Source of the DNA: Opitutaceae bacterium
GTDB lineage: Bacteria > Verrucomicrobiota > Verrucomicrobiia > Opitutales > Opitutaceae
Direction: 5' to 3'
NCBI GenBank assembly: GCA_023269585.1
Contig: JAHFTC010000003.1
Coordinates: 1 to 64,000, forward strand
Length of the DNA: 64,000 bases
The first letter of the stretch is position 1, and the number at the start of each line of letters is the position of its first letter. Below the pieces are notes generated by a model. It was given only the letters and a program-made list of their open reading frames with translations, did not search any database and had not been told where the DNA came from. This document shows, in pieces, positions 18,049-45,158 of this stretch. Made by a program: the position numbers and the translations under genes.

Positions 18049-18108
18049 ACGGGGGCTGAAGCACCCCGCCACTCAGGACGAAGCGTGGCCCGGTGCTTCA
18101 GCCCGGGC
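18049..18108. repeat. BIME-like pair, GTGG heads facing inwards
   Basis: CGGGGGCTGAAGCACCCCGCCAC ... GTGGCCCGGTGCTTCAGCCCGGGCT. Confidence 0.85.
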
Positions 18109-34080: not shown

Positions 34081-34208
34081 GTGGCGGGGTGCTTCAGCCC
34101 CCGCAGGACACCGTCGCCCACCGCAAGCGCCCCTGCGCAACCCAAGGCTCCGTCAACACCGGCCCCGGCCGCACGTATCCGCCCGCCCGGGCTGAATCCC
34201 CGGGCCAC
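34081..34208. repeat. BIME-like REP pair (type B forward, type A inverted)
   Basis: GTGGCGGGGTGCTTCAGCCCCCGC ... GCCCGGGCTGAATCCCCGGGCCAC. Confidence 0.85.
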
Positions 34209-36349: not shown

Positions 36350-36476
36350 GTGGCGGGGTGCTTCAGCCCCCGCAGTCCGGCTCCGCGCGCCGTGCGTGCG
36401 CCGCTTCGTAGCCCCTGGCTCCGCACAGCGTCGTGCGCCGGCGCCATCCGCCGACCCGGGCTGAAGCACCGGGCCA
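36350..36476. repeat. BIME-like REP pair (type B forward, type A inverted)
   Basis: GTGGCGGGGTGCTTCAGCCCCCGC ... CCCGGGCTGAAGCACCGGGCCA. Confidence 0.85.
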
Positions 36477-36488
36477 GGTGGAGCGGGA

Positions 36489-40964: not shown

Positions 40965-41133
40965 GGCAATTCTCGGGGTTCGGGCGCGCTGAGCCGCGCG
41001 GGGTTTTGAGGAAACGCGAGTCGAGGTGACCGTAGCGGGGGGGCCGTTGGCAGCAACGGCAGCGGAGGCCGGCGCGCGAATCAGTAGGCGAACGCAAACG
41101 CGGGTGTAGGGAAACTGTAGGCGGAGTTGCGCC

Positions 41134-41301
41134 GTGGCCCGGTGCTTCAGCCCGGGCTGGCCGGCGCGAGCCGGCTCACGATGCGAGGCGGAGCCGGGGG
41201 CTGTGTTCTGCCGTGTTCGACAAGCAATGCTGCGTAGGGGGCTGCGACGCGGCGCGCGCGGCGGGCGGAGCCGAACTGCGGGGGCTGAAGCACCCCGCCA
41301 C
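41134..41301. repeat. BIME-like REP pair upstream of RAYT
   Basis: GTGGCCCGGTGCTTCAGCCCGGGC ... GCGGGGGCTGAAGCACCCCGCCAC. Confidence 0.95.
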
Positions 41302-41366
41302 GGGCTGCGGCCGGAGGCAGAAACGGATACTTGCTGGGTCTGCGGATACACGTCAGCCTGTGGGCG

Positions 41367-41960
41367 ATGGCGGAAACCCGAGAGCGTTGGCGCGCACAAT
41401 TGCCCCATTGGGAGGTTCGCGGCCGCCCGCATTTCATCACGATCCGTTGCGCCGGGGCTCTGCCGGAGGAGGTGCGATTGCGGCTCGCCGAAATCCAACG
41501 CGCCTTGCAGGCCGTCGAGCCGCGGTCGCCAGAGTTCGCCCAGTGGCAACGCCGCTACTTCCTCACCTGCGAGAAGTACCTCGATACCAGCAAAGGCTTC
41601 GCTCCCTTTACTACGCCCGCTCTGGGCGGCTTGTGGCGTCAGACATTACAGACTTGTGCGCCCATCTGCGGCTGGTCGTTCCCTCATTGGGTGGCCATGC
41701 CCAACCATGTCCATCTCCTGATGGAGGCGACCTGCGCGGAACCCCTGCCCTTGCGAAAAGCCGTTGCTCAACTCAAGGGGCGATTCGCGAGAGAGGCCAA
41801 CCGCCACCTCCAAAGGACCGGCGAGTTTTGGCAGAGCGAATGGTTCGACCACTGGTGCCGCGACGACGACGAGACTACGCGGATCATCGCGTACATTCGC
41901 CAAAATCCCGTGAAGGCCGGACTTGCGACCACGTGGGAGGCGTACCCGTGGGCGCAGTGA
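41367..41960 (+). mobile_element. REP-associated tyrosine transposase (RAYT; Y1/HUH superfamily)
   Basis: RPHFITIRCAG, WVAMPNHVHLLM (HUH), FWQSEWFDHWCRDDDETTRIIAYIRQNPVKAGL (Tyr helix). Confidence 0.93.
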
Positions 41961-41980
41961 TGAAACGTCGTCATGTAGAC

Positions 41981-42555
41981 GTGGCCCGGTGCTTTAGCCC
42001 GGGCTGGCCGGCGCGAGCCGGCTCACGATGCGAGGCGGAGCCGGGGGCTGCGTGCTGCCGTGTTCGACAAGCAATGCTGCGCTGCGGGCTGCGATGCGGC
42101 GTGCGCGGCGGGCGGAGCCGAACCGCGGGGGTTGAAACACCCCGCCACGGGGAAGGCCCGGCGCAATGGGGCCGGGGTTGCGACGTGGCCCGGTGCTTCA
42201 GCCCGGGCTGGCCGGCGCGAGCCGGCTCACGATGCGAAGCGGAGCCGGGGGCTGCGTGCTGCCGTGTTCGATAAGCAATGCTGCGCTGCGGGCTGCGATG
42301 CGGCGTGCACGACGGGCGGAGCCGAACCGCGGGGGTTGAAACACCCCGCCACAAGGAAGGCCCGGCGCAATGGGGCCGGGGTTGCGACGTGGCCCGGTGC
42401 TTCAGCCCGGGCTGGCCGGCGCGAGCCGGCTCACGATGCGAGGCGGAGCCGGGGGCTGTGTGCTGCCGTGTTCGACAAGCAATGCTGCGCTGCGGGCTGC
42501 GACGCGGCGTGCACGGCGGGCGGAGCCGAACCGCGGGGGCTGAAGCACCCGCCAC
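41981..42555. repeat. Three tandem BIME units, exact 204-bp period
   Basis: Forward cores at 41988, 42192, 42396; inverted cores at 42130, 42334, 42538. Confidence 0.97.
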
Positions 42556-42585
42556 GAAAAACGCCGCCCGGGGTCGGGCGGCGTT
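42556..42585 (-). terminator. Rho-independent terminator of glgP
   Basis: Minus strand AACGCCGCCCG-ACCC-CGGGCGGCGTT-TTTCG. Confidence 0.85.
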
Positions 42586-42632
42586 CGGGGAAGCTCAAGT
42601 CCGCTGCGACCGGGCGGAGGCCGGTCCTGTGT

Positions 42633-45158
<2,526 letters not shown>

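Follow-up and report, generated by a model that had tools for sequence, protein, structure and literature searches.

Organization of the RAYT locus

The region 41134–42555 of the analysed stretch (the window, 64,000 nucleotides) places a tyrosine transposase gene among ordered hairpin repeats, which raises the question of whether the gene and the repeats belong to one system, how the regular array arose, and whether its layout is new. The locus is very probably a REPtron belonging to an Opitutales-type member of the Verrucomicrobiota, in which a RAYT (REP-associated tyrosine transposase) is accompanied by REPINs that it would mobilise, and in which the array would derive from local duplication. 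The evidence for this reading consists of a Y1/HUH RAYT, head-outward REPINs built from two REPs with different stems, dispersed REPs, the covariation of their stems, and the link between the RAYT tree and the CTTCAG loop.

The RAYT gene (41367–41960, forward strand, 197 aa) lies between one repeat unit upstream and three downstream, in agreement with the preliminary description. Unit 1 (41134–41301, with REP B forward and REP A inverted), unit 2 (41981–42148) and unit 3 (42185–42352), all on the forward strand, measure 168 bp, the length earlier given for the repeat; unit 4 (42389–42555, forward strand) departs from it at 167 bp, one C being missing near its end. Pairwise identity among the four units is 91.7–97.0%. 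The forward and inverted cores start at 41141/41283, 41988/42130, 42192/42334 and 42396/42538 in units 1–4, and the previously reported distance of 142 bp holds in all four. Units 2–4 are spaced 204 bp start-to-start, the period also reported before, and TRF agrees (41978–42557, period 204, 2.8 copies, 95% matches, score 1076). The 36-bp linkers between units 2 and 3 (42149–42184) and between units 3 and 4 (42353–42388) are almost identical, which suggests that the linker was duplicated in tandem along with the unit. No Rfam family matched within the RAYT/REPIN locus.

Two inverted, head-outward REPs are present in each unit, the arrangement of a REPIN or BIME, and REPs flank the RAYT on both sides, as in a REPtron. 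The earlier reading, a RAYT within an array of its own REPINs (BIMEs), is borne out by the RAYT models and by these flanking head-outward REPs, and the cognate relation is supported by the locus scan and tree described below.

Features of the RAYT protein

Translation probably starts at ATG 41367 rather than at TTG 41331, from which the frame is already open, because the start of the aligned homologues corresponds to M(A)ETRERW. The protein scores 33.7 bits against Pfam Y1_Tnp (cut-off 23) and 82.8 bits against NCBIfam NF047646 (REP-associated tyrosine transposase), above the cut-off of 80, and 19.9 bits against the IS200 model, under its own cut-off of 55. The HUH motif is MPNHVH, and the presumed catalytic Tyr lies within AYIRQNPVKAGL. 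All seven aligned proteins (the RAYT and six homologues) retain both His residues of MPNHxH as well as the Tyr in the YIRQNPVKAGL segment. The best PDB fold match of the AlphaFold model (pLDDT 85.6) is 4er8, the TnpAREP–REP hairpin complex, with an E-value of 9.3e-9, ranking above the IS200/IS605 transposases. A PDB search by sequence alone returned 4er8 at E 0.53, which is too weak, and the fold comparison decided. The NF047646 match, the HVH motif with the Tyr, and the 4er8 fold identify a Y1 HUH transposase with the RAYT signature. Its named relatives come mostly from Opitutia/Opitutaceae MAGs.

REP hairpins and stem covariation

The ends of the unit, both facing outward, are formed by REP B (GTGGCCCGGTGCTTCAGCCCGGGC) at one side and REP A (GTGGCGGGGTGCTTCAGCCCCCGC) at the other. 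Both can be folded into a hairpin with a TTCA loop, a 6-bp stem, a bulged T and two inner base pairs (GC/GC); a GT(A/G)G head is followed by an imperfect palindrome, as in known REPs. Units 2 and 3 have a common compensated inner pair, from GCTTCAGC to GTTTCAAC.

The REP stems co-vary across the clade. Among 61 distinct 24-mers, selected by head and loop only and with pairing not required, 60 contain at least four of the six stem pairs. Covariation was counted in a manual selection of 55 of them; of the six dropped, five have a divergent inner stem and one has an internal change of length. In these 55, 93.6% of the cells are paired, against 25–49% when the partners are slid, and the covariation score is 0.346 against 0.03–0.07 for slid partners, a control that retains the relatedness of the sequences. 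Changes on both sides of the stem occur in 38 cells against a shuffled mean of 6.2, a comparison that is inflated by relatedness.

Dispersed copies and other tandem arrays in the genome

The REPs are dispersed in many copies through the genome, beyond what chance would give. In the 4.47-Mb assembly, a 19-mer covering REP A and REP B finds 103 sites at up to three mismatches versus 16 for the reversed pattern, and 45 versus 0 at up to one mismatch; 24 matches are exact, and the REP cores are well matched. Dispersed A/B REPINs of 128 bp are located in the window at 36350–36477 and 34081–34208, both on the forward strand, together with a tail-to-tail pair at 18049–18108 (REP A on the reverse strand, head at 18072; REP B on the forward strand, head at 18085). 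The dispersed A/B pairs of this genome and of the congener G010 mostly span 126–130 bp, with long forms of 168–215 bp. The interior of the 168-bp form is partly conserved (TGTTCGACAAGCAATG) and is shared with a few long copies (C9, C139 and C83). Two dispersed copies match the RAYT-locus unit over its full length, at 73% (C139) and 69% (C9) identity, and the remaining matches are partial and variable. Since the tandem copies are 92–97% alike and the full-length dispersed copies just 69–73%, the array appears to have been made or homogenised locally. The recent activity proposed in the preliminary description is not supported, the full-length dispersed copies being diverged even though the tandem copies are alike. 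The contig ends G000:C149:19312–19469 and G000:C139:1–225 carry nearly the same REPIN array; these contigs are therefore probably adjacent, the assembly having broken in the repeat.

A second RAYT of the genome (G000:C52, L138), 60% identical to that of the window, is adjoined by a tandem REPIN array with an exact period of 113 bp and 2.9 copies (L138:758–1081). Both REPtrons thus have an exact-period array next to the gene, but the REPs at L138 are GTAGGTCGTCCCTTCAGGGCGACC and GTAGGTCGCTGCTTCAGCACGACC. A BIME-like tandem array with a 152-bp period and 2.1 copies exists at 2540–2990 of the window, containing GTGGGGCGGTGCTTCAGCCCGCCC and an inverted GTAGGTCGTCCCTTCAGGGCGACC-like repeat, which is of the REP class flanking the second RAYT. 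The same mixed REP class is found at L136:468–927 (G000:C67), in a tandem array with a 120-bp period and 3.8 copies.

Matching of RAYTs and REPs across related loci

A scan for CTTCAG-loop REPs covered the sequences flanking 34 related RAYT loci. Such REPs flank six of them (L138, L070, L071, L072, L075 and L076), all among the closer homologues of the window RAYT. None was found at the other 28 loci scanned, including L077 (44%), L078 and L079 (39%); several loci end at contig ends, which makes the absence weaker evidence there, and since the CTTCAG loop was the search term, other REP types are missed by the scan. The inverted repeats at L077 and L078 have GTAG heads and loops of other kinds. 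When mapped on a tree of 35 RAYTs, the CTTCAG-REP label requires 2 changes, whereas shuffled labels need 6.5 on average. Because the six loci with CTTCAG-loop REPs all belong to the closer homologues, the window RAYT and its REPs are probably cognate, and the pattern of labels fits a coevolution of the kind described in PMC2817692.

Across the family, the association between RAYT presence and REP sites is only loose. A RAYT match at E <= 1e-10 is present in 43 of 100 genomes, and the REP A/B 19-mer at up to one mismatch in 21 of 100; of the genomes with sites, 14 belong to the 43 that match a RAYT and 7 to the 57 that do not. In the congener G010 there are 18 REP sites, and no RAYT exceeds 34% identity; G056, another congener, has neither RAYT nor REP sites at these cut-offs. 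The preliminary description had named units absent elsewhere in the genome and equally common in relatives lacking the RAYT as evidence against itself, and this is found in part, G010 carrying REPINs without an orthologous RAYT. Loss of the RAYT with persistence of REPs is known in E. coli strains, as cited in PMC3733652.

The two genes that border the REPtron (window 40977–42633) are found in separate neighbourhoods in both G010 and G056, so the REPtron occupies a point of gene-order difference between species, and no clean empty site for it was found in these two genomes. Empty sites for other REPINs were likewise not clean, the G010 sites compared being rearranged or diverged. In G010 (L147:3630–3680, G010:C4), GTGGCGCCACGCCACGAAA is situated beside the terminator-like hairpin of glycogen phosphorylase and is perhaps the trace of a lost REP end.

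Alternative explanations

The 168-bp unit could instead be a MITE with terminal inverted repeats of about 25 bp, moved by a DDE transposase and placed beside the RAYT by chance. Its inverted ends and the partly conserved interior shared by several long copies suit such an element. However, each end is a hairpin with a co-varying stem, a property not required of the terminal repeats of DDE elements; some REPs are paired tail to tail; and homologous RAYTs have similar REPs in their flanks. No target-site duplication is apparent around the dispersed copies, judged from an unsystematic reading with no clean empty site. The hairpin covariation, the tail-to-tail pairs and the REPs at homologous RAYTs lead us to reject the MITE, which is extremely improbable. 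Hardly better placed is the proposal that the 204-bp period reflects a spacing needed by the RAYT or by host DNA-binding proteins. Three successive units do keep exactly this period, but elsewhere in the genome arrays repeat at 113, 120 and 152 bp. Given linkers that are nearly the same in sequence, duplication accounts for the exact period, and a functional spacing is rejected as well.

A reading with appreciable weight, though still the less probable one, is that the locus is a REPtron by descent whose RAYT no longer moves REPs, the repeats persisting through roles at transcript ends, in protein binding or in mRNA stability. It differs from the preferred explanation in present activity alone. 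The divergence of the full-length dispersed copies (69–73%), the REPINs without a RAYT in the sister species G010, and the position of unit 4, which abuts a terminator-like hairpin of the convergently oriented glycogen phosphorylase gene, are consistent with such a remnant. Against it stand the intact RAYT frame with all catalytic residues present, and the well-matched REP cores with their exact 19-mer matches. For the RAYT-mobilised REPtron itself, the A/B REPINs that G010 keeps without an orthologous RAYT and the lack of a clean empty site in G010 are counted on the opposite side.

In the REPtron model, each REP would fold whenever the strand that bears it is exposed as single-stranded DNA, as may happen on the template of the lagging strand, and the RAYT would read the GTGG guide and the hairpin. 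The enzyme is then predicted to cut and rejoin the single-stranded REP DNA, by which the REPINs would be moved as non-autonomous elements. In PMC8266576 a GTGG guide directed cutting to CC, and by analogy the window RAYT is predicted to cut at CC or CA. The 204-bp array would have originated from local duplication of unit and linker rather than from three separate insertions, by way of unequal recombination, replication slippage or RAYT rejoining.

Comparison with known REPtrons

The preliminary description took the GTGG head as a sign that the architecture may be uncommon. By definition a REP head reads GT(A/G)G (PMC2817692, PMC3686654), many of the REPs of Pseudomonas open with GTGG, and in Opitutus terrae, which has many REPs, most GTAG-20 elements are GTGG-headed (PMC3733652); a "new head" is accordingly rejected, GTGG lying within the published definition. 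Nor can the tandem layout or the long unit be called uncommon. In P. fluorescens SBW25, REPINs together with flanking DNA are clustered in tandem next to RAYTs, in groups of up to four REPINs and more than 700 bp (PMC3116915), and the second RAYT of the present genome has its own array of 113-bp period; head–head heterodimers and tandem reiteration including flanking DNA also appear in PMC3733652. "REPtron" is an established name (PMC6006769). Since GTGG heads, heterodimers and RAYT-adjacent tandem arrays are already published, the window locus is a well-formed new example of a known REPtron type, with a layout as in Pseudomonas and Opitutus, and no new type of system.

In the case of SBW25, the RAYT likewise stands beside an ordered array of near-identical GTGG-headed REPINs with flanking DNA, but the phylum and the REP sequence differ (the CTTCAG loop is found here), and the REP spacings are 71 and 110 bp against the 168-bp unit. 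The GTAG-17/19/20 families of O. terrae (PMC3733652) come from a related host group and share GTGG in most GTAG-20 elements and head–head dimers or heterodimers. Their spacers are mostly 20–100 bp against about 120 bp here. The E. coli TnpAREP REPtron (4er8; PMC8266576) shares the Y1/HUH fold and a REP whose stem is interrupted and whose guide is 4 nt long, but the two proteins are 13% identical in the structural alignment, and the guide is GTAG in E. coli and GTGG here.

Tentatively, and with some doubt, the Opitutales RAYT clade may depend on the guide and the TTCA-loop end for recognition and accept nearly any stem, whereby stem-variant REP classes, several per genome, would diversify as heterodimer REPINs under related RAYTs. 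The locus adds a well-resolved REPtron clade outside the Proteobacteria, where most RAYT work has been done. Its RAYTs with matched REPs, which have one loop but differing stems, constitute a natural series for working out which hairpin segment is read by the enzyme.
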